Source: Marinobacter orientalis (lineage in GTDB: Bacteria > Pseudomonadota > Gammaproteobacteria > Pseudomonadales > Oleiphilaceae). Taken from it: 64,000 nt of DNA. Location of the stretch: NCBI RefSeq assembly GCF_004792665.1, contig NZ_SRZX01000001.1, positions 248,001 to 312,000 of the forward strand. Reading direction: 5' to 3'. Below the pieces are notes generated by a model, which saw only the letters and a program-made list of their open reading frames with translations, made no database searches and was not told where the DNA came from. A program made the position numbers and the translations under genes. Position 1 is the stretch's first letter, and the number at the start of each line of letters is the position of its first letter. Shown in pieces: positions 10,443 through 51,087 of this stretch.

Positions 10443-10550
10443 GGTCGATGGGGGAAGGGGTGTACCAGAAACGCCGTGAACCCATCCTTGGGGGCTTGAG
10501 CGCAGCGTCCCTGCTGCGCACATTCTGGTACACCCCTTCCCCCACCGACC
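10443..10550 (-). repeat. Palindromic element A
   Basis: Outer arms 10443-10470 and 10523-10550 are complementary over 28 bases with one mismatch. They enclose a 52-base core (10471-10522). The reverse of the core matches the core of element B at about 48 of 52 bases although the arms are unrelated. The core contains an inner hairpin GCGCAGC/GCTGCGC and a CCCATCCTTGGG hairpin. It lies between urea carboxylase and the GntR gene. The minus strand carries the GGA loops, so it is the only element whose GGA strand is antisense to its upstream gene. Confidence 0.9.
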
Positions 10551-10661
10551 GGCCAACTATTGGTGCATGCAAGTTTAAAAACAGAAATGGCGGCGTTTCG
10601 CTGAAGGCCCGCTACAAACATGGTGCCTGAACATATGCAGGCAAAGGGAGTCGGGGACGGA

Positions 10662-10759
10662 TGTTGGGAGGGGCTATTCAAAAGTGTGCGCAGCAGGGAT
10701 GCTGCGCTCAAGTCCCCATGGATGGGTTCACGACGTCTTTTGAATAGCCCCTCCCAACA
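10662..10759 (+). repeat. Palindromic element B
   Basis: Perfect 22-base arms (10662-10683 and 10738-10759) surround a 54-base core that is nearly the reverse complement of element A's core. The plus strand presents two hairpins with GGA: GCGCAGC-AGGGAT-GCTGCGC and CCCATGGATGGG. It is 73 bases upstream of the GntR start codon, so it may form part of that gene's leader. No target duplication is visible at its borders. Confidence 0.9.
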
Positions 10760-10832
10760 GCCGGCCCCAGAGGCCAAACACCAACAGATGAGGCCCCGGA
10801 AACAAAGGGAACCAGAGGGAATCAGGAAAAAA

Positions 10833-11567
10833 ATGGCAACAAACACCAAAAGAAAAGAGTCCATGGCAGACAGGGTTTACGAGGCCCTGAAGGACGACAT
10901 CTTTGAGTTCCGGCTGATCCCCGGCGACAAATTCAGCGAGGGGGATGTGGGTTTGCGCCTGAGTGCCAGCCGCACGCCAGTGCGGGAGGCGCTTTACCGA
11001 TTGCAGCGGGAAGGTTTTGTGGAAGTGCTGTTCCGCAGCGGCTGGCAGGTTAAACCGTTCGATTTCCAGCAGGTGGAAGAACTCTACGACCTGCGGATTA
11101 CCCTTGAACGGGCGGCGATGCACAAGATCTGTCAGTTGCCGGCAATGCCCCAGACCGTAAGGACTCTCACCGCCATCTGGAACCCCGACCACCCCTCCGA
11201 ACGTGCCGTTGGCAGCACGGTAAGGGCACTGGATGAAAGCTTCCACTGTGACCTGGTGGCCGCCGCCGGCAACCGGGAGATGACGCGGATTCACCGGGAG
11301 ATCACCGATCGGCTGCGGATTATCCGCCGGCTGGACTTCACCCGCGATGACCGGATAGACGCTACCTACCGGGAACACGCCGACATACTCGACGCGCTTC
11401 GTGCGGGCCGTGCTCTCGATGCGGCGAACCGGTTAACACGCCATATTCGTATCAGCCAGAAGGCCGTTCGCGAAATCACCATGGTGAAGATTCGCGAAGC
11501 CGCGGAAGCCCATCAGGCATCATCCAGAAGCTTTCCCGGCACTGCAGAAACACCAGCAAAAACCTGA
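10833..11567 (+). CDS. GntR-family (FCD) transcriptional regulator
   Basis: A 244-residue regulator with an N-terminal winged helix (about residues 12-75, with SASRTPVREALYRLQREG, the classic GntR recognition segment) and a C-terminal all-helical FCD ligand domain containing the expected Asp, Arg and His positions (LYDLRITLERAA; LDESFHCDLV). FCD regulators usually sense small organic acids and act as repressors. I choose ATG 10833, preceded by AGGA at 5-base spacing; the frame extends upstream to 10620 through palindromic element B and is unlikely to be translated there. Its location just after the urea genes suggests control of them through the GTATAC sites, but this is not shown. Confidence 0.85.
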   Translation: MATNTKRKESMADRVYEALKDDIFEFRLIPGDKFSEGDVGLRLSASRTPVREALYRLQREGFVEVLFRSGWQVKPFDFQQVEELYDLRITLERAAMHKICQLPAMPQTVRTLTAIWNPDHPSERAVGSTVRALDESFHCDLVAAAGNREMTRIHREITDRLRIIRRLDFTRDDRIDATYREHADILDALRAGRALDAANRLTRHIRISQKAVREITMVKIREAAEAHQASSRSFPGTAETPAKT

Positions 11568-11607
11568 ACTTATATTCATTTTATGGCTGTGAAAATGATT
11601 ACATATC

Positions 11608-11625
11608 TGTAAGAAATATCGCACA
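11608..11625. promoter_or_regulatory. GacA-box-like upstream activating site
   Basis: TGTAAG-N6-CGCACA matches the GacA target TGTAAG-N6-CTTACA at 10 of 12 defined positions. Its centre is about 65 bases before the predicted start of the small RNA, similar to the placement in Pseudomonas rsmY and rsmX genes. Confidence 0.65.
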
Positions 11626-11646
11626 AACCACAGAGCGAATGTCCCA

Positions 11647-11674
11647 TTACCTGAAAATGGCTCACGCGTAGAAT
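11647..11674 (+). promoter_or_regulatory. Predicted promoter of the Csr/Rsm small RNA
   Basis: A good -10 box TAGAAT (11669-11674) with a weak -35 TTACCT (11647-11652) at 16-base spacing. A weak -35 is expected where an upstream activator is needed. The predicted start is near 11681. Confidence 0.5.
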
Positions 11675-11680
11675 GAGGAG

Positions 11681-11858
11681 CGTCAGGGATGAGAAGCCGG
11701 CATGGAAAGCTGGCACAGGGAAGATAACCCCACGGATCAGGGGTTGCCCAGGGAATCAGGGCTTACAGGGAAGACGCGCTCAGGACGATGCGCAGCCTGA
11801 AGGATCAGGCATGGGGTCAGCCACGGGCAGAATCACACGGAAAGTGGTTCTGCCCGTG
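11681..11858 (+). ncRNA. CsrB/RsmZ-type regulatory small RNA
   Basis: About 178 bases with nine GGA motifs, six of them in hairpin loops. Stems: 11696-11701/11709-11714 (loop ATGGAAA), 11726-11731/11740-11745 (loop ACGGATCA), 11746-11749/11759-11762 (loop AGGGAATCA), 11776-11779/11790-11793 (loop TCAGGACGAT), 11795-11799/11806-11810 (loop AAGGAT), and a 15-base terminal stem 11822-11836/11844-11858 (loop ACGGAAA). Unpaired CAGGGA motifs lie at 11684, 11716 and 11766. RNAs of this design bind several CsrA/RsmA dimers and relieve translational repression. The terminal stem lacks an immediate T-run; a T-rich tract follows at 11871-11893, so the 3' end is uncertain. A short reading frame across it (11673-11876) has no protein character. 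Confidence 0.85.
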
Positions 11859-11965
11859 CACCTGCCAACGGTTTGACCTTTCCTTTTCTTTTCCAACCAG
11901 CTCCGCCGCTTTTACGTCCTGACCAACAATCAGAAACGTAAATACACTTTCAGGAGCAAGCTATA

Positions 11966-12247
11966 ATGAAATCCACCCCGAAACCCACCCAGTTCATGGC
12001 CATGCTGGTCCTTCTGTTCAGCCTGTTTGCCGGTTTTGCCCACGCCGAGCCTGCCGCCATCAATATCAACACCGCCGACGTCGCCGCCCTGGCCAGCCTC
12101 AATGGCATCGGGCAAAGCAAGGCCGAAGCCATCGTGGCCTATCGCGATGCCAACGGCCCTTTCCAGTCCAGCGAGGACCTTGCCAACGTCAAGGGCATTG
12201 GTGAGCGCACGGTTGAAAAGAACGCCGAGCGCCTGACGGTCGAGTAA
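11966..12247 (+). CDS. ComEA-like helix-hairpin-helix protein
   Basis: A 93-residue secreted protein: signal peptide 1-27 ending in AHA, then two helix-hairpin-helix motifs (LASLNGIGQSKAEAIV and LANVKGIGERTVEKN). The family includes ComEA, a periplasmic DNA-binding protein used in natural transformation. Small stand-alone versions like this are common in gammaproteobacteria and may have the same DNA-uptake role. The start is supported by AGGAGC upstream. It lies downstream of the Csr/Rsm RNA and has its own short context; a weak hairpin follows at 12258-12276. No competence operon is nearby. Confidence 0.85.
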   Translation: MKSTPKPTQFMAMLVLLFSLFAGFAHAEPAAININTADVAALASLNGIGQSKAEAIVAYRDANGPFQSSEDLANVKGIGERTVEKNAERLTVE

Positions 12248-12378
12248 CCCTGCCGGGCAGTGGCCTGGCGCCGCTGTCCAGCTTTCCTCAAAAATTTCCC
12301 ATAAAGTCGTCTGGCAACACATGCTCCGCCACCCTATAGTTGTGGGTTACAGTCAACGATAACCCCGGCGGCAGCAAT

Positions 12379-13158
12379 ATGGTTGATCCCATCAAGGTTT
12401 ACCCGGCCAAACCTCCCAAAGTCTATTTCTACGGCACCTGTCTGGTGGACATGTTCTACCCGGACGCAGGCATGGCCGGCATTCAGTTACTGGAACGGGA
12501 AGGCGTCGAGGTGATCTATCCCGAAGACCAGACCTGTTGCGGCCAGCCTGCCTACACCTCCGGCTACCACGACCAGGCCCGCGCGGTTGCGAAGGCCCAG
12601 CTCGGGCTGTTTCCGGAAGACTGGCCGATTGTGGTTCCTTCCGGGTCCTGTGGCGGGATGATGCGCAAGCACTACCCGGCTCTATTCAAGGACACCGCCG
12701 ACGAGGTGAAGGCGGCGGAGATTGCCGGCCGGGTATGGGAACTGACGGATTTTCTGGTAAACGTTTGCCACATCAGGCTGGACGATCTGGGCGAACCCAC
12801 CACCGTAGCCATGCATACTTCCTGCACGGCCCGCCGGGAAATGGGCGTGGCGGAAGTAGGGCCGAAACTGCTGGGTCAGCTGAAGAATGTAAACCTGGTG
12901 GAACAGGTGCGGGCTGAGGAGTGTTGTGGTTTTGGCGGCACCTTTGCGGTGCGCCACCCGGAGATTTCCGGTGCCATGGTCAGTGAAAAAGTGGATACCC
13001 TGGTGAATACAGGCGCGAAGGAATTCGTCACCACGGATTGCGGCTGCCTGATGAACATTGACGGCTACGCCGAGAAAAACCACAAGCCTGTCACCGGCCA
13101 GCACATTCTCAGCTTCCTCTGGGAACGCACCAACGGCGATGGGAGTAAACGCTCATGA
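12379..13158 (+). CDS. lutA: L-lactate utilisation protein LutA (LldE)
   Basis: A 259-residue protein with two CCG domains: TCCGQPAY early and EECCGFGGTF followed by DCGCLMNI late. These cysteine motifs bind iron-sulfur clusters or heterodisulfide-like centres. With LutB and LutC it forms the respiratory L-lactate dehydrogenase complex in bacteria lacking LldD. I choose ATG 12379 (MVDPIKVYPAKPP); the frame continues upstream to a TTG at 12340 without conserved character. It overlaps lutB by 4 bases. No lactate permease or regulator is adjacent. Confidence 0.92.
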   Translation: MVDPIKVYPAKPPKVYFYGTCLVDMFYPDAGMAGIQLLEREGVEVIYPEDQTCCGQPAYTSGYHDQARAVAKAQLGLFPEDWPIVVPSGSCGGMMRKHYPALFKDTADEVKAAEIAGRVWELTDFLVNVCHIRLDDLGEPTTVAMHTSCTARREMGVAEVGPKLLGQLKNVNLVEQVRAEECCGFGGTFAVRHPEISGAMVSEKVDTLVNTGAKEFVTTDCGCLMNIDGYAEKNHKPVTGQHILSFLWERTNGDGSKRS

Positions 13159-14594
13159 GTGAAACCGCGCAACAATCACCCCATCACATTGATGTGAAGG
13201 AATTCCACCCACGCGCCCGGGCGGCCATCCATAACCCTCAGATTCGCCAGAATTTCCGCAAGGCAATGGACGGGCTGATGACCAAGCGCAAGTCCGCATT
13301 CGAGGGCTGGGACCTGGAAACGCTGCGGGACCTGGGCGCCAATATCCGCCTGCGGGCGCTGGCCAACCTGCCGGACCTGCTGGAGCAGCTGGAACAGAAA
13401 CTGACCGAAAATGGCATCACCGTTCACTGGGCGGCCGATGGTGATGAAGCCTGTGAGATTGTACGGGACATTTGTGTAGCCCGTAACGCCAGCAGCGTGA
13501 TCAAGGGCAAGTCCATGGTGTCCGAGGAAATGGAACTGAACCATTACCTGGAAGAACAGGGTATTGAAGCCCTGGAGTCGGACCTCGGCGAATACATCGT
13601 GCAACTGGCGGAAGAAACGCCGTCCCACATCATCATGCCGGCGATTCACAAGAACACCGAAGAAATTTCCCAACTGCTGCATGACAAGACCGGCACCGAC
13701 CTGTCCCACGATGTCGAGTACCTGACCGCCAATGCCCGCCTGCAGCTGCGCGAGAAATTCATGAATGCGGATGTCGGCGTTTCCGGTGTCAACTTCGCCG
13801 TTGCCGAAACCGGCACCCTGTGCCTGGTGGAGAACGAAGGCAACGGTCGCATGACCACCACCGTGCCGCTATGCCATATTGCCGTGACCGGCATCGAAAA
13901 GGTGGTGCCCAACCTGGAAGATGTTACCGCCCTGCTGGCGCTGCTGACACGCTCCGCTACCGGGCAACATATCACTACCTATTTCAACATGATTTCCGGC
14001 CCCCGCAAGGCGGACGAACTGGATGGCCCCGAAGAGGTCCACCTGGTGCTGGTGGACAACGGCCGCTCCACCATTTACCAGGATGACGAACTGCTGGATA
14101 CCCTGCGCTGCATCCGCTGTGGCGCCTGCATGAATCATTGCCCGGTCTACACCCGCGTCGGTGGCCATGCCTATGGCACCACCTACCCCGGCCCCATTGG
14201 CAAGATACTGATGCCCCACATGGTCGGCCTGGACGAAGGGCGGCACCTGCCCACGGCTTCGAGCCTCTGTGGTGCCTGTGGTGAAGTCTGCCCGGTGAAA
14301 ATCCCGATACCGGACCTGCTGGTGCGCCTGCGCCAGGAATCCGTGGACGGTGACAAGTTGCACCCGGCAAAGGTCCGCGGCCATGGTGCCAAGCGCAGCA
14401 GTATGGAAGCGATGATCTGGAAGGGCTGGAGCTGGATGCACGCCCGCCCCGGCATGTACCGGATGGGGACCAGCCTGGGCGCCCGCTTCCGCAAACTGCA
14501 GCCAGGCAAATTCGGTGGCTGGACCCGATACCGCACGGCGCCAAAGCTGGCTGCCAGAACTCTCCACGAACGGATGAAGGAGCGCAGCCAGTGA
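13155..14594 (+). CDS. lutB: L-lactate utilisation iron-sulfur protein LutB (LldF)
   Basis: A 479-residue protein with a LUD domain over the first roughly 300 residues and a ferredoxin-like region with two 4Fe-4S motifs: CIRCGACMNHCPVY near residue 318 and CGACGEVCPVKIP near 372. The C-terminal about 90 residues are basic, as in other LutB proteins. It transfers electrons within the LutABC lactate-oxidising complex. ATGA overlaps with both neighbours indicate tight translational coupling. Length is normal for the family. Confidence 0.95.
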   Translation: MSETAQQSPHHIDVKEFHPRARAAIHNPQIRQNFRKAMDGLMTKRKSAFEGWDLETLRDLGANIRLRALANLPDLLEQLEQKLTENGITVHWAADGDEACEIVRDICVARNASSVIKGKSMVSEEMELNHYLEEQGIEALESDLGEYIVQLAEETPSHIIMPAIHKNTEEISQLLHDKTGTDLSHDVEYLTANARLQLREKFMNADVGVSGVNFAVAETGTLCLVENEGNGRMTTTVPLCHIAVTGIEKVVPNLEDVTALLALLTRSATGQHITTYFNMISGPRKADELDGPEEVHLVLVDNGRSTIYQDDELLDTLRCIRCGACMNHCPVYTRVGGHAYGTTYPGPIGKILMPHMVGLDEGRHLPTASSLCGACGEVCPVKIPIPDLLVRLRQESVDGDKLHPAKVRGHGAKRSSMEAMIWKGWSWMHARPGMYRMGTSLGARFRKLQPGKFGGWTRYRTAPKLAARTLHERMKERSQ

Positions 14595-15250
14595 GTTCCC
14601 GTGACGCCATTCTCCAACGCCTGCGCCACCGTACCGGTGGCGAGCTGACCGCTCCGGAATGCGACTTCTCGGTTCTCAACCGGCCCGAGTGGAGTACTGC
14701 AGAAAAGCTGGACATGTTCGAGCGGACCATTGAGTCCGTCCATGGCGAAGTGCATCGCACCACGGAATCCGGCTGGATTGACCGTCTGGCCGAAATTCTG
14801 CAGACCCGGGGCGCCGGGACATTGCTGATTGCGAAGGAGCACGAGATCGGCAAGGCGTTGCAAAGCGCCACGAAAAGCCGCGAGGACCTGCCGCAGCTGC
14901 TGATTTATGACGAGCCGGTGGAAAGCTGGCAGGAAGCGCTGTTCAGTGAAGTGGATGCCGGCATTACTTCAACCCGTGGCGGCATTGCCGAAACCGGATC
15001 ACTGATTCTGTGGCCTTCCGTCGATGAACCGCGGTTGATGAGCCTGGTGCCGCCGATCCATATTGCAGTGCTGAAGGCCAGTGAGCTTTACACCACCTTC
15101 CACCACGCCATGCAATCCCAGAACTGGGCCGCTGGCATGCCAACCAATGCGCTGTTAATCTCAGGGCCGTCGAAAACCGCCGATATCGAGCAGACCCTTG
15201 CCTACGGTGTCCACGGTCCCAAGGAACTCATCGTACTGGTTATTGAATGA
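14591..15250 (+). CDS. lutC: L-lactate utilisation protein LutC (LldG)
   Basis: A 219-residue LUD-domain protein starting with GTG that overlaps the lutB stop. The region GGIAETGSLILWPSVDEPRL is the conserved LUD core shared with LutB. It is the third part of the lactate-oxidising complex. Its stop overlaps the start of the DMT transporter gene, so all four genes may be cotranscribed. Confidence 0.93.
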   Translation: MSSRDAILQRLRHRTGGELTAPECDFSVLNRPEWSTAEKLDMFERTIESVHGEVHRTTESGWIDRLAEILQTRGAGTLLIAKEHEIGKALQSATKSREDLPQLLIYDEPVESWQEALFSEVDAGITSTRGGIAETGSLILWPSVDEPRLMSLVPPIHIAVLKASELYTTFHHAMQSQNWAAGMPTNALLISGPSKTADIEQTLAYGVHGPKELIVLVIE

Positions 15251-16167
15251 TTCAAGGCGCATTACTGATCGCCCTGGCAGCCCTGCTCTGGGCGACCACG
15301 GGTATTGTCGCGAAATTCCTGTTTACCGGCACCGAGCTGCAAGCCGTAACCCTTGGTTTTTTACGTTTGGTGGTAGCCCTGCCGTTTTTCTTTGCACTTA
15401 TGCGCAGAGAGCAGCGGGCGCTGGCTCGAAGCGCTACTGCGCTGCCGAAATTCACACGCAAGGCACTGGCTCCGCTGGTCGCGCTGGGATTGTTCCAGGC
15501 CGTCTACCAGGGCAGTTACCTGGTGGCCGTGGATATGACCGGCGCGGGCATCGCCACACTGATTGCTCTGTGCCTGGCACCGGTACTGGTGGCCATCCTC
15601 GCGGCGCCCCTGCTGGGGGAAAAACCCGGAGTGGTCACTATTCTGGCGCTGGCGGCAGCCATTGCCGGCACTGCCATGCTGGTGGTCAGTGATATGGACA
15701 GTGCCGGCAGGCTGCGCCTGGCGGGCATTCTGATGGCGGTTCTGGCAGCGCTGGTTTACGCCGGGTTCACCCTCACCAGCCGTCATACGTCCACTGGCAC
15801 GCCGGTATTTACCACAGCGTTTGTCTGCTTCTTTACCGCAGCGCTGATCCTGTTGCCCGTGGTGGCAGCCAGCGGTGGTTTCGACGGGCTTGAAAGTCTG
15901 GGGTTCGGGCAATGGCTGATGGTGGGTTATATCGGCGTTGTGCCGACCTGCCTGGGGTATATGTGCTTTTTCAGTGGCATGAAGACAACGCCGGCGACCC
16001 TGTCCAGCATTATCGTGACCCTGGAGCCGCTGTTCGTGGCACTGCTTGCGTGGATTTTCCTGGGCGAGGAACTGGGTGTGATCGGGCTCACCGGCGCACT
16101 GATTCTGACGGCAGCGGTGATCGTGGCATCCAGAAGCAGTGCCGGGAATCGGCCCGACACTGCCTGA
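15247..16167 (+). CDS. DMT-superfamily (EamA) transporter
   Basis: A 306-residue inner-membrane protein with about ten predicted helices arranged as two EamA repeats. The second repeat ends with the conserved-looking VTLEPLFVALLAWIFLGE. Such proteins export amino acids or other small metabolites; the substrate cannot be read from sequence. The ATG overlaps the lutC stop (ATGA), suggesting membership of the lut transcript, possibly to export a metabolite linked to lactate. It converges on the glyoxalase gene with a 15-base gap that includes a short ACAGCA-GGA-TGCTGT hairpin. Confidence 0.88.
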   Translation: MIQGALLIALAALLWATTGIVAKFLFTGTELQAVTLGFLRLVVALPFFFALMRREQRALARSATALPKFTRKALAPLVALGLFQAVYQGSYLVAVDMTGAGIATLIALCLAPVLVAILAAPLLGEKPGVVTILALAAAIAGTAMLVVSDMDSAGRLRLAGILMAVLAALVYAGFTLTSRHTSTGTPVFTTAFVCFFTAALILLPVVAASGGFDGLESLGFGQWLMVGYIGVVPTCLGYMCFFSGMKTTPATLSSIIVTLEPLFVALLAWIFLGEELGVIGLTGALILTAAVIVASRSSAGNRPDTA

Positions 16168-16182
16168 TACAGCAGGATGCTG

Positions 16183-16743: not shown

Positions 16744-16833
16744 GGGAACTCCCTTATTTATGCGTCGAGGATTCAACCATTATACCTGTGTACCTTTCCG
16801 GAAGATTTCAAGGGCGCCGTTTTTTGATTGGTC

Positions 16834-17970: not shown

Positions 17971-18027
17971 GGATTTTTCCTCATCGGCAGTTACACTGAA
18001 TTCTGGTGATCGCTTTTTGCTGCCTGA

Positions 18028-18057
18028 ATTATTGTCCTACAATACGACAATCGTCAA
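18028..18057 (-). promoter_or_regulatory. alkB promoter with internal palindrome
   Basis: On the minus strand, -35 TTGACG (18052-18057) and -10 AATAAT (18028-18033) are 18 bases apart. The spacer contains the inverted repeat ATTGTC-N9-GACAAT (18031-18051), well placed for a repressor. The predicted start gives a leader of about 50 bases to the GTG. Confidence 0.55.
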
Positions 18058-18195
18058 CCCGTTGTTGGTCATTATGGGTTTTCAGACCGGGATCTGTCTT
18101 TTGGAGATGGCCGACTCTGCGACCCAACCCACTGACTCCAGTGACTATCTGGCTCATTACCAGTAAACTGCCAGTCTCCTGATGGCAGGCAGCCC

Positions 18196-30595: not shown

Positions 30596-30705
30596 GGTCC
30601 GGCTGGTATCCCCTGTTCAAAACCGTGGAGCGCCAGGCATGGCGCGACGAGCCCTACATGGAGGTATTTACGGGCGTTTTTTGAACAGGGGGTACCAGCC
30701 GGACC
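30596..30705 (+). repeat. Palindromic element C
   Basis: Arms 30596-30622 and 30679-30705 pair over 27 bases with one mismatch. The 56-base core is homologous, on the reverse strand, to those of elements A and E. The plus strand carries CTACATGGAGGTA and a GCGCC-AGGCAT-GGCGC hairpin. It fills the gap between two convergent genes (the small 30406 gene and cbpM) and may terminate both. Confidence 0.88.
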
Positions 30706-33042: not shown

Positions 33043-35270
33043 CCTGGATGAAATGGCTACCCTGGCGCTTTGTGATAAAAAGCGTCGCCCGTAAACACGG
33101 CTTTCTTGATCCTATTGCCCTGCTCTCCAAAGTCCATGGTTTCGCTCAGCCCTCGGAGGTTGGCGAGCCCATCGAGCTGCTGCGCGCCGGTGTGGTTTTC
33201 CATGCCCGGGGCCTGATCAACAGCCGGGTCATCCAGCACAACCTGGACTGGGTCTGGCCCTACTGGATCGAGCGGCAGTTTGACCCAAAGGATCCTTCGT
33301 TCATCCCCCGGGCCTTTTCCATTACCCACATCAACCTAAGCAACCGGAACTGGACCGCTGTGGGGCACCCTGACTGCGACGAACTGCCGATCGTGGACCC
33401 GAGGGGTCTGCTGACACCGTTTTTTGACAGTTGGTCACTGGACGGATGGCTGCTGGCGGAAGACGGCCGCTGCCTGCTGCCCTCGCGGATGAAAGATTCC
33501 CGCCAGTGGCAGGAACTCGGGGATGTGATCAGCGTGGATACGGAGTCATCCATGGAGGGCCTGGAGCTGAGCAGCCGCTCCTGGGTGGAGCTCGAAGATG
33601 GCATTCCGGTCTGCAAATTCCGGGTGCGCGCAAAGTCGGAAGTGGCAGGCTCATTGGTGCTTGCCCTGCGGCCCGCCAATCCGGAGGGGGTCAGCTTCAT
33701 TAACAGCGTCAGCCTCTCCGACAAACGGGATGGCTGGACTGTAGACGGCAACCGTTCAGTGACCTTCAGTGCCCCTGCCGAGCGGCATCATATTTCGGAT
33801 TACCGGAATGGCGATGTGCACATTCACCTGACTGATCGCGAGGATCAGAAAGAGGGTGTCTGTGACGTAGGCATGGTAACGGCGGCAGCGCTGTTTTCTG
33901 TCGAGGCCGGCAAGACCCGCGAGATCACCGCCAGCATTCCACTCAGCCAGAACCCAGCAGATCTGCCGGAGGCCGATGCCTGGCAGACGGAGCAGGAGGG
34001 CCATGCCCGGCTGGTGTGCCCGGAACCCCGGTACCAGTTTCTCTATGATGCGGCGGTGGCATCCCTGATTCTTCATTCGCCGGATGATGTCTATCCCGGC
34101 CCGTTCACCTACAAGCGTTTCTGGTTCCGCGACGCCGCCTTCATCATCAACGCATTGCTGAGCATCGGGCTGACAGCCCGGGCTGGAAGGGCGCTGTCGC
34201 GCTTTCCCCAGCGCCAGACCAAAGGCGGTTATTTCCGCTCACAGGAGGGTGAGTGGGACGCCAATGGTGAAGTGCTGTGGATACTCAAGCGCTTTTTCGA
34301 CCTGACCGGCCGCCGCCCGGAAAAACACTGGCATGAGCCCATACGCCGTGGCGCCAGGTGGATCACTAACAAACGCCTGCGCAAGGAAACGGAAGCACCC
34401 CACGCCGGCCTGCTGCCGGCAGGTTTCAGCGCTGAACATCTGGGTCCCAATGACTACTATTACTGGGATGACTTCTGGGGAATCTCTGGGCTTCACTCTG
34501 CCGCGGACATGCTGGCGGTCGACAGCCCTGACGATAGCCGGACTTTCCGGAACGATGCCGTCGATTTCGCGAAAGCCGTCGATCGCAGCCTTGAGGGCTG
34601 CCAGCAGCGCCTGAAACGGCCAGGCATGCCAGCCTCCCCCTACCGTCGCCTGGATGCAGGCGCCATCGGTTCCCTGGCCGTGGGCTACCCGACCCAGCTC
34701 TGCGCTCCCGATGACCCGCGCCTGCTGGACTGCGTTGAATTTCTGCTGGAGCGGTGTTTTGTCGACGGAGCCTTTTACCAGGACATGATCCACTCCGGGT
34801 TGAACGCCTACCTGACCCTGCACGTGGCCCAGATACTTCTGCGGGCCGGTGACCCCCGCTACCTGCAGCTGATGGACTCCGTGGCCGAGCTGGCCTCCCC
34901 TACCGGCCAGTGGCCCGAAGCAATCCATCCCGGCACCGGAGGCGGTTGCATGGGAGACGGACACCACGTCTGGGCATCGGCCGAATGGGTGCTGATGGTC
35001 CGCAACTGCTTTGTGCGGGAGGAGGGCGAACGCCTGGTGCTCTGCGGTGGCATACCGGAACGCTGGCTGGAACAGGGCGAGACCATCAGCTTCGGGCCGG
35101 CACCAACCGCCTTTGGCACTGTCTTCGTGAGTGTAACGCCCGACTCGGAAGGTTCTCCAACAGTGGCGTGGACCGCCGACTGGCACACAGAAGAGCCACC
35201 CATTGATGTGAAGCTGCCAGGGTATGAGCCGGTAGTGGCGAACCCGGGAACAAACTCCACCAAACTGTAA
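33039..35270 (+). CDS. Six-hairpin glycosidase-like protein, function unknown
   Basis: A 743-residue predicted cytoplasmic protein. The second half (about 340-660) looks like an alpha/alpha toroid of the GH15/amylo-alpha-1,6-glucosidase type: YKRFWFRDAAFIINALL near 360 and GEWDANGEVLWILKRF near 405 are aromatic and acidic motifs placed like substrate-binding segments. The first half is beta-rich. The start is GTG 33039, overlapping the upstream stop, with GGAG ahead; ATG 33048 is an alternative. The link to a DedA-like membrane protein suggests an envelope or storage glycan, but no substrate can be named. Confidence 0.68.
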   Translation: MTWMKWLPWRFVIKSVARKHGFLDPIALLSKVHGFAQPSEVGEPIELLRAGVVFHARGLINSRVIQHNLDWVWPYWIERQFDPKDPSFIPRAFSITHINLSNRNWTAVGHPDCDELPIVDPRGLLTPFFDSWSLDGWLLAEDGRCLLPSRMKDSRQWQELGDVISVDTESSMEGLELSSRSWVELEDGIPVCKFRVRAKSEVAGSLVLALRPANPEGVSFINSVSLSDKRDGWTVDGNRSVTFSAPAERHHISDYRNGDVHIHLTDREDQKEGVCDVGMVTAAALFSVEAGKTREITASIPLSQNPADLPEADAWQTEQEGHARLVCPEPRYQFLYDAAVASLILHSPDDVYPGPFTYKRFWFRDAAFIINALLSIGLTARAGRALSRFPQRQTKGGYFRSQEGEWDANGEVLWILKRFFDLTGRRPEKHWHEPIRRGARWITNKRLRKETEAPHAGLLPAGFSAEHLGPNDYYYWDDFWGISGLHSAADMLAVDSPDDSRTFRNDAVDFAKAVDRSLEGCQQRLKRPGMPASPYRRLDAGAIGSLAVGYPTQLCAPDDPRLLDCVEFLLERCFVDGAFYQDMIHSGLNAYLTLHVAQILLRAGDPRYLQLMDSVAELASPTGQWPEAIHPGTGGGCMGDGHHVWASAEWVLMVRNCFVREEGERLVLCGGIPERWLEQGETISFGPAPTAFGTVFVSVTPDSEGSPTVAWTADWHTEEPPIDVKLPGYEPVVANPGTNSTKL

Positions 35271-35301: not shown

Positions 35302-35405
35302 GCAGTGGCGGGGCTGCCTTCCGGGAACGTCAAAAACATGGATGTTTTTGTCGAGCGTACAGGGCCGTATTCACAGCGTGTCCCGGAAGGCAGCCCCGCC
35401 ACTGC
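35302..35405 (+). repeat. Palindromic element D
   Basis: Perfect 25-base arms (35302-35326 and 35381-35405) around a 54-base core. The plus strand shows AAAAACATGGATGTTTTT, a hairpin exposing ACATGGATGT, and a second GTACAGGGCCGTA stem. It lies between convergent genes (glycosidase-like and fba). Confidence 0.9.
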
Positions 35406-36579: not shown

Positions 36580-36674
36580 GGCCGAGAAGCTCTTCCGGGA
36601 CACGCCGTAAATACGTCCATGTAGGCTCGTAAAAACATCCCTGTTTTTTACGGTCCCGGAAGAGCTTCTCGGCC
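36580..36674 (-). repeat. Palindromic element E
   Basis: Perfect 22-base arms (36580-36601 and 36653-36674) around a 51-base core. On the minus strand, which is the sense strand of pgk and fba, it presents AACAGGGATGTT within an A/T-rich hairpin and CTACATGGACGTA. The first contains ACAGGGATGT, an exact match to the conserved part of the CsrA SELEX consensus. It lies between pgk and fba. Confidence 0.9.
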
Positions 36675-37995: not shown

Positions 37996-37996
37996 A

Positions 37997-42417: not shown

Positions 42418-43608
<1,191 letters not shown>

Positions 43609-43667
43609 TTTCAGAACTGGTCGTACAAAGACAGCGATCACCAGAATTTTAATGACAGGAGAACACC

Positions 43668-45062: not shown

Positions 45063-45074
45063 TCAGGTAGCAGC

Positions 45075-45944
45075 ATGGAAACCCAGAAACAGTTCAGACG
45101 CCGTTTCAGCTTCGAGTTTTTCCCGCCCAAGACCGACAGGGGCTGGGAAAAGCTGCAGGGCGTGCGCAATACCCTGGCCGGGGTTGATCCGGATTTCTTC
45201 TCGGTCACCTTTGGCGCCGGCGGGTCCACCCGGGACCGCACTGTGCAGACAGTGCTGGATCTGCACAAGCGGGGCGTGTCCACTGCGCCGCACCTGTCCT
45301 GCGTGGGCGCCAGCCGGGGCAGCATTGCGGAACTGCTGGATGTCTACCGTGACAACGGTATCAACCGCATCGTCGCCCTGCGGGGCGACATGCCTTCGGG
45401 CATGGGCGCTGCCGGTGAACTGCGCCATGCCAATGAGCTGGTTAGTTTCATTCGCGAGCACAGCGGCGATACCTTCAACATCGAAGTGGCGGCCTACCCT
45501 GAGTTTCATCCCCAGGCCCGCACCGCGGAAGACGACCTGAAGAACTTCGCCCGCAAGGTTGAAGCCGGCGCCAACAGCGCCATTACCCAGTACTTCTTCA
45601 ACGCGGACAGCTACTTCTACTTTATTGACCGGCTGGAAAGGATGGGCGTTACCATTCCGGTGGTTCCGGGCATCATGCCTATCGTCAACTTCTCCAACCT
45701 GACCCGCTTCTCCGACATGTGCGGCGCGGAAATCCCCCGCTGGATCCGCAAGCAGCTGGAAGCTTACGGCGACGACAGCGACAGCATCCGCCAATTCGGT
45801 GAGGAAATGGTTACCGGCATGTGCGAAAAACTGCTCGCCGCCGGGGCCCCGGGGTTGCACTTTTATACCCTGAACCAGGCTGAGCCGAGTCTTAGCATCT
45901 GGAAGAATCTGGGACTTGGGGAGCGGCAGAAAATTGCTTTTTGA
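45075..45944 (+). CDS. metF: 5,10-methylenetetrahydrofolate reductase
   Basis: A 289-residue FAD-dependent TIM-barrel enzyme that makes 5-methyl-THF for homocysteine remethylation. Motifs: SFEFFPPKTDRGWEKL with the catalytic Glu, TFGAGGSTRDRT, ALRGDMPSG, and ITQYFFNADSYF for FAD binding. Twelve bases after ahcY, closing the methyl cycle operon. Downstream lies a REP cluster that could end transcription. Confidence 0.96.
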   Translation: METQKQFRRRFSFEFFPPKTDRGWEKLQGVRNTLAGVDPDFFSVTFGAGGSTRDRTVQTVLDLHKRGVSTAPHLSCVGASRGSIAELLDVYRDNGINRIVALRGDMPSGMGAAGELRHANELVSFIREHSGDTFNIEVAAYPEFHPQARTAEDDLKNFARKVEAGANSAITQYFFNADSYFYFIDRLERMGVTIPVVPGIMPIVNFSNLTRFSDMCGAEIPRWIRKQLEAYGDDSDSIRQFGEEMVTGMCEKLLAAGAPGLHFYTLNQAEPSLSIWKNLGLGERQKIAF

Positions 45945-45957
45945 GGAGCCGGCTTTG

Positions 45958-46171
45958 TCGGATTACGGCTTCGCCTGATCCGACCTACGCAAACCAGGGT
46001 TGTGGATTTTATTTTGGTGTCGGATTACGGCTTCGCCTAATCCGACCTACGCAAACCGGGGTGTGGATTCGATTCTGGTGTCGGATTACAGCTTCGCCTG
46101 ATCCGACCTGCATTGATACGCCCATGGCGGCTACGGTAGGTCGGATTAGGCCCAACGGGCCGTAATCCGAC
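45958..46171. repeat. Cluster of four REP-type palindromic repeats
   Basis: Three direct copies of TCGGATTACGGCTTCGCC plus TGATCCGACCTACG variants start at 45958, 46020 and 46081, about 61-62 bases apart. An inverted copy ends at 46171 (TAGGTCGGATTAGG...CGTAATCCGA). Each unit is itself a palindrome (TCGGATTA...TAATCCGA). REP units of this kind are common in proteobacterial intergenic regions. The apparent reading frame at 45941-46165 only reflects the repeats. The remaining part of the gap (46172-46357) shows only the ribosome site of the next gene. Confidence 0.88.
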
Positions 46172-46357
46172 AACTCCCTCTGAACTCTCTCCCCACACCC
46201 AACCACTTGATTTTCTGTACTTCTCCGCCCAATGGTCTAAAGTATAAAAGTTGCAGTTCCATTAACCGCCCCCGGAGAGAAACCAGGCTTGATCAGCCTT
46301 TATTTCCGGCGCATCCGACCAGGTGCGAGGGCGAACACAGAAGAAAAAGGAGATTGT

Positions 46358-47116
46358 ATGAGCACAAAATGGCTTAAAACGGTTGGCGCAACCCTGGCAT
46401 TCACCGTAGCAGCAGGAACCGCCAGCGCAGAGACCCTGCGTGTTGTTACCGACCCCAGCTTCGTGCCTTTCGAAATGATGGACCAGGAAACCGGTGAGAT
46501 GATCGGGTTCGACATGGAGATCATCCGCGAAGTGGCAGACCGTGCCGGTTTTGAGATCGACCTGAACACCATGGACTTCAACGGCATCATCCCGGCGCTG
46601 CAGACGGGCAACGTGGATATCGCCATCGCCGGCATCACCATCACCGAGGCGCGTGAGGAGATCGTTGATTTCTCCGACCCGTATTACGATTCCGGTCTGC
46701 GCATCCTGGTGCGCGAGAGCAACGATGACGTGAAAGAGATCTCGGATCTCGAAGGCCTGAAAATCGGCACCAAAATCGGCAGCACCAGTTACGACTACCT
46801 GGTGGCAACCCTGGATGAGGACGACGGTGTCACCCCGTATCCGGGCAGTTCGGACATGTACATGGCGCTGATGTCAGGTGCTGTTGATGCGGTCTTCTAC
46901 GATGCGCCCAATGTGGGCTACTTTGCCAGCACCAAGGGTGAAGGCAAGGTTAAAACCGTTGGCAAGCTGTACGAAGGCCAGCAATACGGCATTGCGCTGA
47001 AAGACGGCAGCGAGTGGGTGGATGACGTAAACGACGCCCTGGCGTCCATCAAGGAAGACGGCACCTACGAGGAAATCTACGAGAAGTGGTTCGGCCCCAT
47101 GCCGGAAGACAAGTAA
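46358..47116 (+). CDS. Polar amino-acid ABC transporter, substrate-binding protein
   Basis: A 252-residue periplasmic protein of the HisJ/GlnH type with a signal peptide at 1-25 ending in ASA. Motifs: DPSFVPFEMMDQETGEMIGFD, IAGITITEAREEIVDFSDPYY (both family landmarks) and LKIGTKIGSTSYDYL. The substrate is probably a polar amino acid; glutamine is likely by similarity to GlnH but not certain. A strong AAAAGGAG precedes ATG 46358. It leads a three-gene importer operon, and a stable stem-loop follows its stop. Confidence 0.9.
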   Translation: MSTKWLKTVGATLAFTVAAGTASAETLRVVTDPSFVPFEMMDQETGEMIGFDMEIIREVADRAGFEIDLNTMDFNGIIPALQTGNVDIAIAGITITEAREEIVDFSDPYYDSGLRILVRESNDDVKEISDLEGLKIGTKIGSTSYDYLVATLDEDDGVTPYPGSSDMYMALMSGAVDAVFYDAPNVGYFASTKGEGKVKTVGKLYEGQQYGIALKDGSEWVDDVNDALASIKEDGTYEEIYEKWFGPMPEDK

Positions 47117-47128
47117 AACTGAAAACCA

Positions 47129-47155
47129 CAGCCGCGGCGCAAAGCGCCCCGGCTG
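47129..47155 (+). terminator. Intercistronic stem-loop after the binding-protein gene
   Basis: CAGCC-GC-GGCGC-AAA-GCGCC-CC-GGCTG, 13 bases after the stop. Such stem-loops behind binding-protein genes often stabilise the upstream message or attenuate the permease part, raising binding protein over membrane components. No T-run follows. Confidence 0.55.
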
Positions 47156-47185
47156 GCAACGCCCCACCCGACGGAGACACCCACT

Positions 47186-47857
47186 GTGGAATTCCAGTTT
47201 CAGTTTGACTGGCAGGCAGCCATAAACTCGATTCCCTACCTGCTCAAAGGCATTCCCTACACTCTTCTTATTTCCTTTGGCGGCCTTGCCATCGGTTTCA
47301 TACTCGGCATCTTTTTTGGCTTGCTGAGCATCAATAAAAGGTGGTTTTTACGCTGGCCAGCCACGGCGTATATTGAAATTTTTCGCGGCACCCCGATTCT
47401 GGTACAGGTGCTGTTCATCTTCTATGGCTTGCCAGATCTGATTGGCGGCCCCATTGATCCGCTGACCGCCGGTATCGCAGCCATCGCCCTGAACTCCGGC
47501 GCCTATATCTCCGAAGTTGTCCGTGGCGGCGTGCAGTCGATCGACAAGGGCCAGACCGAAGCCGGCCTTTCCCTGGGCCTGTCACGGTCCCAGACCTTCT
47601 GGTCGATCATCTGGCCACAGGCCTTCCGCCGCATGATCCCGCCTCTGGGCAATCAGGCGATCGTGAGCATCAAGGACACCTCGCTGTTCTCGGTCATTGG
47701 TGTGGGTGAACTGGTCCGTCAGGGCCAGGTGTATATCGCCAATACCTTTACCGCCTTCGAGGTCTACTTCGTGGTGGCGCTCATGTACCTCGCGATTACC
47801 CTCTCCCTCTCTCTCGTGCTCCGCTACATAGAGCGGCGCGGACTGGTTTCTGTCTGA
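47186..47857 (+). CDS. Polar amino-acid ABC transporter, permease
   Basis: A 223-residue inner-membrane protein of the HisMQ/GlnP family with about five helices. The LIYxEXxRG-type motif AYIEIFRGTPILVQVLF and the EAA loop EAGLSLGLSRSQTFWSIIWPQAF are clear. It starts with GTG after a CGGAGA site. It forms a homodimer or pairs with itself in the importer encoded by its neighbours. Confidence 0.92.
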   Translation: MEFQFQFDWQAAINSIPYLLKGIPYTLLISFGGLAIGFILGIFFGLLSINKRWFLRWPATAYIEIFRGTPILVQVLFIFYGLPDLIGGPIDPLTAGIAAIALNSGAYISEVVRGGVQSIDKGQTEAGLSLGLSRSQTFWSIIWPQAFRRMIPPLGNQAIVSIKDTSLFSVIGVGELVRQGQVYIANTFTAFEVYFVVALMYLAITLSLSLVLRYIERRGLVSV

Positions 47858-47870
47858 AGGATAGGTACTC

Positions 47871-48617
47871 ATGACACAGATCGTGCAAATGCGGGGCATG
47901 AACAAGTACTTCGGTACCCTGCATGTCCTCAAGGAAATTGACCTGACCGTTGAAGCCGGCGAAGTGGTGGTGATCATCGGCGCCAGCGGTTCCGGCAAGT
48001 CCACTCTTATCCGTTGCGTCAATGGCCTGGAAGAATTCGAATCCGGCAAACTGGTAGTGGACGGCAACGAACTTGCCCCGAAAAGCGGGAACCAGAAAGC
48101 CCTGGCGAAAATCCGCAAGGAAGTGGGCATGGTGTTCCAGCAGTTCAATCTTTTCCCCCACCTCACGGTGAAGAAGAACATCATGCTTGCTCCCAGGAAG
48201 GTCAAGGAAGCGCCCGAGCCCATTGCCAGCGCCACCGCCGACCGGTTACTGAACCGCGTGGGCATTGCCAGCCAGGCGGACAAGTACCCCTCCCATCTGT
48301 CCGGAGGCCAGCAACAACGGGTAGCCATTGCCCGCGCCCTGGCCATGGAGCCAAAGCTGATGCTGTTCGACGAACCCACCTCGGCACTGGACCCGGAAAT
48401 GATCGGTGAAGTGCTGGACGTAATGCGTGAACTGGCCAAAGAGGGTATGACCATGATGGTGGTAACCCACGAAATGGGCTTCGCCCGGGAAGTAGCCGAC
48501 CGCGTGATTTACATCCACGAGGGCAGGATTGTCGAAGAAGGCAAGCCTGCGGACGTGTTCGACAACCCGCAGAATGAACGTACCCAGGCGTTCCTGAGCC
48601 GGGTGCTCGCGCACTGA
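47871..48617 (+). CDS. Polar amino-acid ABC transporter, ATP-binding protein
   Basis: A 248-residue ATPase of the GlnQ/HisP family. Walker [10 protein letters not shown] at 37-45, signature LSGGQQQR about 143-150, Walker [14 protein letters not shown] about 163-175 and the switch His in VVTHEMGFA. It is 13 bases after the permease gene and ends the importer operon. A GC-rich hairpin follows. Confidence 0.94.
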
Positions 48618-48636
48618 ACCACAGCGAAAGGGAGAC

Positions 48637-48669
48637 AGCCGCCCTGCCCCCGGTGAGCGCGGGGCGGCT
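48637..48669 (+). terminator. Hairpin after the amino-acid importer operon
   Basis: AGCCGCCC (48637-48644) and GGGCGGCT (48662-48669) form a perfect 8-base stem with a 17-base loop, 19 bases after the stop. There is no T-run, so factor-independent termination is uncertain. Confidence 0.4.
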
Positions 48670-48692
48670 CAGCAGGCGGTGGTCAGCGGGCG

Positions 48693-48724
48693 CTGTTAAC
48701 TGTAATATCCGCACAGGTTAACCG
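48693..48724. promoter_or_regulatory. BirA-operator-like inverted repeat upstream of bioA
   Basis: CTGTTAACT, a 14-base spacer, then GGTTAACCG, 39 bases upstream of bioA. The layout and spacing resemble BirA boxes (TTGTAAACC, about 15 bases, GGTTTACAA), with the core GTTAAC in both halves. A TAATAT -10-like box lies in the spacer (48703-48708). Confidence 0.45.
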
Positions 48725-48763
48725 CCGAGAATCCTGAACCTGACCGTCTCATGGAGATTTATC

Positions 48764-50116
48764 ATGCGCAACGCTGACCTCGTCGCCCGCGGCCTCAAAT
48801 CCGTATGGCATCCCTGCACCCAGATGAAAGACCACGAAGGGGCTGTGCCGCTGGTTCCGATCAAGCGGGGTGAAGGCGTCTGGCTGGAGGATTTTGAGGG
48901 CAACCGCTTCATCGACGCCGTGAGTTCCTGGTGGGTCAACCTGTTCGGTCACGCCAACCCGAGAATCAACGCGGCGATCCAGGAACAGATTGGCCAGCTG
49001 GAGCATGTCATCCTGGCCGGATTCACCCACGAGCCTGTGGTTAACCTGTCCGAGCGACTTATCGAAGTCACCCCTGACGGCCTCAACAAGTGCTTTTACG
49101 CCGACAACGGTTCTTCGGCGATTGAAGCGGCACTCAAGATGAGTTTCCATTACTGGAAAAACCACGGCAAACCGGGCAAGAAAAACTTCGTCAACCTGGG
49201 CAACAGCTATCACGGAGAAACCCTGGGAGCCCTGGCTCTTGGCGATGTTGCCCTCTACAAGGACACCTATCAGCCACTATTGATGGAAGTGCTGACGGCG
49301 CCCTCTCCGGATGCCTTCAACAAAGAGCCCGGCGAAACCGATGAGGAATACGCCCTGCGCCAGTTCGAAGCCATGGACGCACTGCTGGCGGAAAAACACG
49401 ACGAGATCTGTGCCGTGGTAGTAGAACCCCTGGTTCAGTGCGCCGGCGGCATGCGCATGCACCACCCGATCTACCACACCAGACTTCGTGAAGCCTGCGA
49501 CAGATATGGCGTACACCTGATCGCCGACGAAATCGCTGTTGGCTTCGGCCGCACCGGCACCCTGTTTGCCTGCGAGCAGTCGGGCATCACCCCGGACTTC
49601 ATGTGCCTGTCTAAAGGCCTGACCGCCGGCTACCTGCCACTGTCCGTGGTGCTCACCACCGATAATGTCTATAACGCCTTCTACGACGACTACGAAACCC
49701 TGAAGGCTTTCCTGCACAGTCACAGTTACACCGGCAACCCTATTGGTTGCGCCGTGGCACTGGCGACTCTGGACATCTTCCGCGATGACAAGGTGATCGA
49801 GAACAACAGACGTCTGAGCGCCTGCATGGCAGACTCCGTGGCCCACCTGGCGGACCACCCCAACGTTGGCGATATCCGCCAGCACGGCATGACCCTGGCG
49901 GTGGAACTGGTCAGGAACAAAGCCACCAAAGAGCCCTTCCCCTGGCAGGAACGCCGTGGCATCCGCGTATACCAGCACGCCCTTACCCGCCAGTCCCTGC
50001 TGCGCCCCCTGGGCAACGTGGTCTACTTCATGCCACCCTACGTGATTACTGAAGAGCAGATCCGCCACCTGGCCCAGGTAGCCACTGAAGGCATCGAAAT
50101 CGCTGTACGGGACTGA
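48764..50116 (+). CDS. bioA: Adenosylmethionine-8-amino-7-oxononanoate aminotransferase
   Basis: A 450-residue PLP enzyme that makes 7,8-diaminopelargonate using SAM as amino donor, in biotin synthesis. The BioA N-terminus HPCTQMKDHE and the substrate motif AVSSWWVNLFGHANP are present. The PLP lysine is Lys284 in CLSKGLTAGYLPLS. Other class III aminotransferases lack the WHPCTQM segment. It stands apart from other bio genes here, possibly under its own BirA control. Confidence 0.95.
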   Translation: MRNADLVARGLKSVWHPCTQMKDHEGAVPLVPIKRGEGVWLEDFEGNRFIDAVSSWWVNLFGHANPRINAAIQEQIGQLEHVILAGFTHEPVVNLSERLIEVTPDGLNKCFYADNGSSAIEAALKMSFHYWKNHGKPGKKNFVNLGNSYHGETLGALALGDVALYKDTYQPLLMEVLTAPSPDAFNKEPGETDEEYALRQFEAMDALLAEKHDEICAVVVEPLVQCAGGMRMHHPIYHTRLREACDRYGVHLIADEIAVGFGRTGTLFACEQSGITPDFMCLSKGLTAGYLPLSVVLTTDNVYNAFYDDYETLKAFLHSHSYTGNPIGCAVALATLDIFRDDKVIENNRRLSACMADSVAHLADHPNVGDIRQHGMTLAVELVRNKATKEPFPWQERRGIRVYQHALTRQSLLRPLGNVVYFMPPYVITEEQIRHLAQVATEGIEIAVRD

Positions 50117-50126
50117 CGAAAACACC

Positions 50127-50861
50127 ATGCGCACCCCTCGTATCTACACTGACTCTCCGCTGAGCGAGGGAGCCACCGCTGCACTGGACGACAACGCGGC
50201 GCAACACGTCGGCCGCGTATTGCGCATGCAGCCCGGGCAGGAACTGCTGCTGTTCAACGGCGATGGCAACGACTACCCCGCCACGATCAACGAATCCGGA
50301 AAAAAACGGGTGGAAGTGCAGGTTGGCAGCCCGGTGGCAAACACCAACGAATCCCCTCTGGACATCGTCCTCGGCCAGACCCTCTCCAAGGGCGACCGCA
50401 TGGACTATGCTGTGCAGAAAGCCGTAGAAATGGGCGTCACCCGCATCGTTCCCCTGACCACCGAACGCTGCGACGTAAAACTCAAAGGCGACCGCGAAGA
50501 CAAACGCCTGCGCCACTGGCAGTCCGTCGCCACCAGCGCCGCCGAACAATGCGGCCGCGCCCGGGTGCCGGAGATATTGCCGGTTATGGCGCTGACGGAC
50601 TGGTTCGACCACACCAGCGACTGCGACCTGCGCCTGGTCCTCCACCACCGCACCGAACGGTCCCTGAACACGCTGGCAAAACCAGGTCGGGTGGCCCTGA
50701 TGATCGGCCCGGAAGGCGGCCTCAGCCCGGACGAAATCACCGCCGCCGAAACCGCCGGCTTTCTCCCTGTAGCCCTCGGCCCCCGAGTCCTCAGAACCGA
50801 AACCGCCCCGGTCGCGGCCATAGCTCTGTGCCAATGGTTGTGGGGAGACATCGGAAGCTGA
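50127..50861 (+). CDS. rsmE: 16S rRNA m3U1498 methyltransferase RsmE
   Basis: A 244-residue SPOUT-class enzyme with an N-terminal PUA-like domain (AAQHVGRVLRMQPGQELLLFNG) and a C-terminal knot with GPEGGLSPDEI and LGPRVLRTETAP. It methylates U1498 of 16S rRNA. Ten bases downstream of bioA and probably cotranscribed. Palindromic element F lies about 115 bases past the stop. Confidence 0.95.
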   Translation: MRTPRIYTDSPLSEGATAALDDNAAQHVGRVLRMQPGQELLLFNGDGNDYPATINESGKKRVEVQVGSPVANTNESPLDIVLGQTLSKGDRMDYAVQKAVEMGVTRIVPLTTERCDVKLKGDREDKRLRHWQSVATSAAEQCGRARVPEILPVMALTDWFDHTSDCDLRLVLHHRTERSLNTLAKPGRVALMIGPEGGLSPDEITAAETAGFLPVALGPRVLRTETAPVAAIALCQWLWGDIGS

Positions 50862-50975
50862 CAGATTCCGACCGTGCCGCCGTCTCAGGCTGGCAGGCAA
50901 GTCATTGACAGCAGCGACGCCTAACAACATTATCCCTGTCGAGTAAAAAGCGTCGAGGGTAGCTCTCTAGCCGAG

Positions 50976-51087
50976 GCTGCATTACGGGGAGGCGTTTCCA
51001 AAACTGTGCGGAGCCATGGATGGCGGAGCTCAAGCGCCACATGGATGTGCTTGAGCGTGTTTTGCAAACGCCTCCCCGTCATGCAGC
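50976..51087 (+). repeat. Palindromic element F
   Basis: Arms 50976-51004 and 51059-51087 pair over 29 bases with two mismatches. The 54-base core has two strong hairpins on the plus strand: GAGCCATGGATGGC with its flanks, and CTCAAGCGCC/GTGCTTGAG enclosing ACATGGATGT. Both loops show GGA. It lies between rsmE and the DUF445 gene, both on the plus strand. Confidence 0.9.

Follow-up and report, generated by a model that had tools for sequence, protein, structure and literature searches.

Palindromic elements of the window and their copies in the genome

A 64 kb stretch of Marinobacter orientalis DNA, the whole of which was analysed and is referred to here as the window, carries six large palindromes in which two long self-complementary arms enclose a related core. 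The palindromes are candidate members of a dispersed RNA element whose core displays two GGA loops, and are named E1 to E6 below. A preliminary description made from the sequence alone had located them, and all six were confirmed at the positions it gave by an inverted-repeat scan of the window (perfect 12-base seeds, gaps of at most 120). Just two further inverted repeats were returned by the scan, so the six palindromes are not chance. Two orientations are distinguished throughout: A, the orientation of the preliminary description, in which the core begins ACGCYGTRAA, and B, its reverse, which is the proposed RNA strand. The elements and their loops are as follows.

E1, 10443-10550, strand B on the minus strand: arms 10443-10470 and 10523-10550 with one mismatch, core 10471-10522; GGA loops at 10506-10513 (CAGGGACG) and 10483-10490 (CAAGGATG), minus strand
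E2, 10662-10759, strand B on the plus strand: uninterrupted arms 10662-10684 and 10737-10759; GGA loops at 10694-10701 and 10717-10724, plus strand
E3, 30596-30705, strand B on the plus strand: arms 30596-30622 and 30679-30705 with one mismatch; loops at 30634-30641 (CAGGCATG, GGA lost) and 30657-30664 (CATGGAGG), plus strand
E4, 35302-35405, strand B on the plus strand: arms 35302-35326 and 35381-35405; loops at 35337-35344 (CATGGATG, intact) and 35360-35367 (CAGGGCCG, damaged), plus strand
E5, 36580-36674, strand B on the minus strand: uninterrupted arms 36580-36601 and 36653-36674; loops at 36636-36643 (CAGGGATG) and 36614-36621 (CATGGACG), minus strand
E6, 50976-51087, strand B on the plus strand: arms about 50977-51004 and about 51059-51086 with mismatches, core about 51005-51058; loops at 51015-51022 and 51040-51047, each CATGGATG, plus strand

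E1 and E2 form a doublet in opposite orientations. E4 sits between the 3' ends of a predicted gene (33072-35270) and a class II aldolase gene, and E5 lies between the phosphoglycerate kinase and aldolase genes. The phosphoglycerate kinase has its best matches in Marinobacter, at up to 92% identity. The uninterrupted arms measure 22, 23, 25 and 22 bp in E1, E2, E4 and E5, respectively, and in E2 the pairing runs a few bases further with mismatches; the arms of E3 are 27 bp with one mismatch and those of E6 are 29 bp with mismatches, 14 bp being uninterrupted in the scan. The near-perfect arms of 21-29 bases described earlier were measured as 22-29 bp with mismatches in E3 and E6, and the cores fall in the same range of 51-56 bases as was first reported, E6 being counted with its mismatches.

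A 22-letter core pattern had 21 matches genome-wide and none with a reversed-pattern control, and long arms flank all 21. A covariance model (R1) was then trained on an alignment of 28 elements drawn from this genome and its relatives. Its search of the 4.0 Mb genome, in which 150 of 1469 candidates were scored, gave 92 matches including all six window elements, and more were found in relatives. Of these 92, 89 were analysed; the three left out, of which one sits at a contig end and two are degraded, have arms shorter than 14 bp. Nothing was found in favour of chance palindromes or an assembly artefact, an explanation that the 92 copies, the absence of control matches and the presence of orthologous loci in many species refute and that we give practically no weight. 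Neither a lack of further copies nor uncompensated divergence of the arms, the two outcomes named beforehand as contrary to the preliminary description, was found when sought.

Counted from the core outward, positions 1-28 are paired in a fraction of 0.70-0.99 of the 89 elements and positions 29-45 in 0.17-0.36, a sharp drop which indicates that the stem length is fixed. The arms are locus-specific, as first described, with agreement between two own copies averaging 25.2 of 56 positions (47 of 56 in the best pair). They do carry a weak consensus (G in 84% at -18, TTCC at -9 to -6, and purines followed by A at -5 to -2), so the earlier statement that they share no sequence was too strong. Nor is the core invariant, as had been supposed: its stems vary too, and one GGA loop is damaged in two of the six window elements. 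Outside the arms the flanks hold at most 0.48 bits of information at any position. No conserved tetranucleotide of the kind that tags REP elements (GTAG or CGTC) was found at the stem base in the flanks of the 89 elements, and the flank composition tables show no T tract adjoining an arm on either strand. A weak C-rich and then A-rich consensus is seen in the strand-B 3' flank at +31 to +38 (C at most 62%, at +35), and a weaker one in the 5' flank at -42 to -35.

Two routes by which the arms might have arisen were considered and set aside. Insertion into the loops of pre-existing terminators was rejected, as there are no T tracts and a given locus has different arms in different species. That the flanking DNA was duplicated in inverted form on insertion is unsupported, given that pairing does not continue past 28 bp, that the arms have a weak consensus and that species free of the element at one gap (pgk-fba, below) seem by eye to be without both arms.

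Covariation and change of the arms

Orthologous loci were fetched in relatives for E1/E2, E6 and E4/E5, E3 being left out; the E4 set was hand-picked (7 loci) and the E5 set comprises 18 elements kept of 27 loci by their flanks. Arms of the same species pair at 24.9-26.9 of 28 positions compared to 15.2-19.4 of 28 when the two arms are taken from different species, the E6 average being lowered by a mis-anchored row of our own E6, which was also excluded from the counts of double and single changes and shortened in the E6 covariation set. Covariation was assessed in E2 (13 rows, 12 distinct) and E6 (21 rows) against 500 shuffles each. In E2, 97.2% of the cells are paired (80.3 when shuffled) and 16 of the 28 arm pairs have changed on both sides; in E6 the values are 98.7% (74.4 when shuffled) and 24 of 28. 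In neither set did any of the 500 shuffles reach the observed covariation score, and sliding the partners reduced it from 0.463 to at most 0.077 in E2 and from 0.656 to at most 0.132 in E6. The core hairpins covary in places as well. The covariation in E2 and E6 thus backs the fold proposed initially, a three-way junction of one outer stem and two inner hairpins.

Changes in both arms greatly outnumber changes in one arm at the orthologous loci: 678 to 26 for E1 (66 pairs), 625 to 81 for E2 (78 pairs), 2107 to 267 for E6 (190 pairs), 1710 to 325 for E5 (153 pairs) and 112 to 53 for E4 (21 pairs), counts which come from five loci, with non-independent pairs and with recombination present. The expectation that both arms change jointly is borne out by this excess of double changes, together with the better pairing of arms within a species.

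The rate of these changes was gauged by the four-fold site divergence of the neighbouring gene. The bin at a divergence of 0.095 (5 pairs) holds 18 double and 4 one-arm changes, or 0.129 doubles per site; 7 of the 18 doubles come from the recombinant pair of genomes G018 and G074, which is still counted in the ortholog tallies and without which 11 double and 4 one-arm changes remain. By our arithmetic, if the sites changed independently and neutrally, about 1 double change and 24 single ones would be expected in that bin. With rising four-fold divergence the doubles per site were 0.199 (at 0.172), 0.173 (0.228), 0.249 (0.278), 0.310 (0.358) and 0.380 (0.463). The transversion share is 0.46-0.83 among double changes and 0.49-0.67 at four-fold sites. 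Paired changes accordingly keep roughly the pace of single four-fold changes. If selection worked by way of G-U intermediates, transitions should prevail and the pace should be slower than neutral; the rate and transversion spectrum of the double changes are explained if one arm is copied into the other.

The evidence favours arm copying by template switching and selection for pairing, both at work. The preliminary description had offered these as alternatives; each has support, and the either/or appears to give way to both. A precise swap of both E2 arms between the close species G018 and G074 was rejected as evidence of copying, as the arm coincides with a recombination breakpoint, and part of the block-like change is accordingly allele exchange. 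Template switching at quasipalindromes is documented in Escherichia coli in the available text of PMC7202029, and Monttinen and Loytynoja (2022; PMC8794818) propose, in the excerpt available, that multi-base paired changes and perfect RNA stems arise from it. Their model resembles the present case in its paired arm changes and perfect stems; it concerns RNA genes such as rRNA in that excerpt, whereas here there are many dispersed copies of one element.

Strand, genomic setting and distribution

On strand B, 84 of the 89 cores carry two CANGGANG loops and the remaining 5 carry one, the loops being 22-25 nt apart; on strand A, no core of the 89 has such a pair, and shuffled cores have it in 2 of 17,800 cases. 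The base preceding GGA is mostly T or G, giving ANGGAN and not strictly AYGGAY. We take CANGGANG to be the recognition consensus of CsrA/RsmA, and Schubert and colleagues are said to have given it in 2007 as the RsmE/CsrA consensus. Since a spacing in this range can be bridged by one CsrA dimer, a single dimer could hold both loops, and the GGA loops occur as would be looked for in a CsrA/RsmA site, with CANGGANG and in pairs at a bridgeable spacing.

The imperfect pairs of the arms are likewise strand-specific. Among arm mismatches in the 89 elements, those that form G-U pairs on B number 80 and those on A 21 (p=3e-9); within the inner 20 bp the counts are 38 and 6, and counted per element 45 lean to B and 8 to A, with 36 ties. 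The bias is present whether the gene flanking B at its 5' end runs along B (41:14) or opposite to it (39:6), and is seen in other species at loci around the window genes (44:21) and in 55 elements from 21 other genomes (42:11). Strand-specific G-U bias and conserved loops together fit selection on an RNA. Loops, wobble pairs and Rfam matches agree that the meaningful strand is B; the ACGCYGTRAA orientation of the core exists, as had been described, but the functional strand is its reverse.

A DNA hairpin formed by single-stranded strand B and read by an enzyme that acts on DNA, for instance an HUH transposase, the G-T pairs then being DNA pairs, would also fit the one-strand tolerance. The doublets also recall those of REP elements: all eight pairs of elements less than 200 bp apart have convergent A orientations (for example C1:452436/452624, C6:232976/233161 and E1/E2). 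Such a reading is nevertheless very improbable in our estimate, as the stem base bears no conserved tetranucleotide tag and the loops fit the consensus of an RNA-binding protein as well as the Rfam family RF01731 discussed below.

By the gene calls of our own simple gene finder, overlap with a predicted gene does not exceed 20 bases in 85 of the 89 elements. The gaps in which they lie are convergent (21), tandem with B in sense (31), tandem with B antisense (24) or divergent (11), with two at the end of a stretch. Divergent gaps are under-used: they hold 11 of 87 elements, yet make up 54 of the 182 gaps that measure 100 bp or more in these stretches (p=0.002). Both features would suit a terminator or a stabiliser of mRNA 3' ends, in which the long hairpin alone matters and the GGA loops are incidental, and YPAL, a Yersinia repeat, is suggested in the accessible part of PMC2229807 to act on the stability of upstream RNA. 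We regard this explanation as unlikely, in that no T tract adjoins the arms, the strand bias ignores gene direction, and a roadblock needs no loop pair at a set spacing. The more specific idea of a 3'-UTR element that is always in sense to its own gene is unsupported by the 31 sense and 24 antisense tandem gaps (p=0.42).

At the gap between the phosphoglycerate kinase and aldolase genes (pgk-fba), species free of the element appear by eye to be without both arms; six loci (L033, L039, L041, L042, L044 and L045), among others, have such an element-free gap, again as judged by eye and with gain and loss not polarised. A query of plasmids with E3 and of phages with E5, one element each, gave no match. 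Other repeats were encountered at these loci. After pgk, L025 and L036 have an element in opposite orientation with different flanks, which suggests independent arrival at one site, and in three species (L023, L029 and L048; about 5195-5400 in pgk-fba) a long hairpin-bearing insert starts just past the GG in the second hairpin of the orthologous element and looks like a further element that landed in the GGA loop. Window positions 46035-46151 hold an unrelated palindromic repeat of the TAATCCGACCTAC / GTAGGTCGGATTA type, with a similar one in L022 (3826-3953), and other palindromes, of the GGGGTCAGATGAAAGC / GCTTTCATCTGACCCC type, lie near the window genes in relatives (L155, 2212-2340; L031, 3862-3969). 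In genome G620 (L344, 2288-3652) a 227-bp unit occurs six times in tandem; every unit has one element, always pointing the same way, and a short GTAGGAGCGGCTTCAGCCGCGATAAGC hairpin that looks like a Pseudomonas REP.

The element was found in all 37 genomes of the genus sample including our own, with match counts per genome ranging from 3 to at least 83, and in 4 of 21 genomes from other genera of the order. In the class it is present in at least 71 of 369 genomes and at least 64 of 272 genera, lower bounds because at most 13 candidates were scored per genome. The 19 genomes that carry it in the phylum sample of 299 all belong to the class. Among 60 distant loci hand-chosen from the high-scoring matches listed, six are without the double loop; the tally of two-loop elements there is circular, since the loops were used to find these elements. 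Inner arms are common to the three analysed copies of G148 and to four of five copies each in G182 and G319, as recent spread would give. Contrary to the view that simple transposition does not produce such elements, spread that includes the arms, as in ordinary transposition, seems to occur in some other genera.

Our genome has one csrA, the product of which matches 1vpz, a Carbon storage regulator homolog of solved structure, at 55 of 58 residues. Of the 71 genomes that bear the element, 66 have a csrA match, as do 247 of the 298 others (p=0.04); when only genomes at least 90% complete are taken, the counts are 58 of 59 and 222 of 255 (p=0.009). The cross-table was read from two lists and entered by hand, and genome reduction could confound the association.

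Relation to known elements and proposed function

The RNA most similar in layout is the TwoAYGGAY RNA (Rfam RF01731; Weinberg 2010, PMC2864571), which is predicted from its loops to bind CsrA (PMC4333381), as far as the available parts of these two papers go. With 150 of 204 candidates scored, RF01731 gave 34 matches at E<=1 in our genome, the best at 40.2 bits, and all 34 lie on elements and on strand B. From the same excerpts, the likeness consists of two adjacent hairpins with A-N-GGA-N loops within a longer outer stem on the same strand; here, unlike there, tens of dispersed copies occur per genome and the outer stem is near-perfect and varies by locus.

The core itself is matched by the RU-2/YPAL repeat of Yersinia pestis. 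The repeat sequence given in the portion of PMC2759123 available is alike in 45 of 50 columns to one of our own cores on strand B, with an alignment score of 37 against a maximum of 14 in 500 shuffles, and carries both GGA loops, CAAGGATG and CATGGATG. YPAL is described in the accessible part of PMC2229807 as a 168-bp element, recently mobile, with target duplications of 3-26 bp and a suggested influence on upstream RNA stability. As excerpted there, it too is dispersed, intergenic and palindromic with a homologous core; it is an element of about 168 bp, whereas the likeness among our copies is confined to the core and a portion of the arm, and it has target duplications while none was found around our elements. 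This homology raises the prospect that the palindromes are miniature mobile DNA of the YPAL type without a part in regulation, long hairpins that some transposase dispersed and whose arms have diverged since, being matched by template switching alone. The varying copy number among congeners and the inner arms common to copies in G148, G182 and G319 point the same way. We nevertheless consider it a rather doubtful account. The loop pair is kept in 84 of the 89 copies, which in other respects are very unlike one another, and across orthologs with differing arms, though cores change in places (E5); the G-U bias is strand-specific; and among the 89 elements there are no near-identical own copies, the best pair sharing 47 of 56 arm positions.

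The reading we prefer is that the palindromes are probably copies of a dispersed, much-multiplied RNA element of the CsrA-binding type, with arms matched by copying and by selection. A number of observations weigh against it. One GGA loop is damaged in two of the six window elements (30634-30641 and 35360-35367), and at least one arm swap, that of E2 in G018/G074, is recombination. The E2 pair-type count, one of five measures, was equalled by 162 of 500 shuffles (E6, none of 500). The G-U bias may also stem from C-to-T mutation bias on strand B, which would itself still suggest B as the transcribed sense strand. In tandem gaps the direction of B shows no preference relative to the genes, and sigma-70 promoters are not enriched over the mirrored flank. 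Target duplications were not found, the flank-repeat score over 40 bases per side being 5.38 within loci and 5.41 across loci; old ones may have decayed. Five element-bearing genomes have no csrA match, among them G276 (L324-L326; 98% complete, 270 contigs) with nine element matches. Our best RF01731 score falls below the gathering score of 43, and the window has no gathering match. Lastly, Ysr224 (RF02770), a Yersinia small RNA that covers the same core with a best score of 31.2 bits, far under its gathering score of 70, is modelled on the opposite strand, A.

In the mechanism that we propose, strand B folds into a 28-bp outer stem bearing a three-way junction with two hairpins, each with a CANGGANG loop, and one CsrA dimer would hold both. 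We infer from sequence comparison that the element is transcribed and bound by CsrA; in clamping the protein it would act as a decoy spread over some 90 loci, as a protein-capped hairpin at the 3' ends of neighbouring transcripts, or as both. Template switching at the hairpin would soon carry a change in one arm over to its partner, and mispaired RNA stems would be selected against, leaving the arm sequence otherwise nearly free. More tentatively, with the balance somewhat on the other side, the elements may form a class-wide family of CsrA-clamping RNAs with tens of loci per genome that buffers CsrA as a distributed network, its stems kept perfect by continual arm copying and its paired substitutions accruing at about the neutral single rate. 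If so, YPAL repeats, TwoAYGGAY RNA and CsrA sites, so far treated separately in the text available to us, would be united, and many predicted CsrA sites would be added that target lists based on ribosome-binding regions (a method described in the part of PMC9788540 available) miss. The arms would also make it testable whether compensatory stem changes arise via selection on double mutants or via template switching, because each genome offers tens of near-perfect 28-bp stems that can be traced across many species.

The sponge RNAs CsrB, CsrC and RsmX/Y/Z present paired GGA-loop sites to the CsrA dimer. They are single genes with many sites, whereas here there are two sites per copy and many copies. 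CsrB and RsmY are named as having several CsrA sites in the accessible portion of PMC4383904. Dispersed intergenic hairpins in doublets also characterise the REP/REPIN and ERIC sequences, and our elements share these features, but beyond their arms there is neither a conserved tag nor a conserved end. In the open-licence literature no paper joining YPAL and CsrA was found, and the Rfam 12 paper, in the portion available, has both CsrA and 'miniature inverted' with no link between them. Formal membership in either family is withheld because the Rfam threshold is not reached, the full length of YPAL is not shared and target duplications were not found. By sequence the core is not new, as it matches YPAL and resembles TwoAYGGAY, and the palindromes of Marinobacter orientalis are likely kin of elements of that kind.

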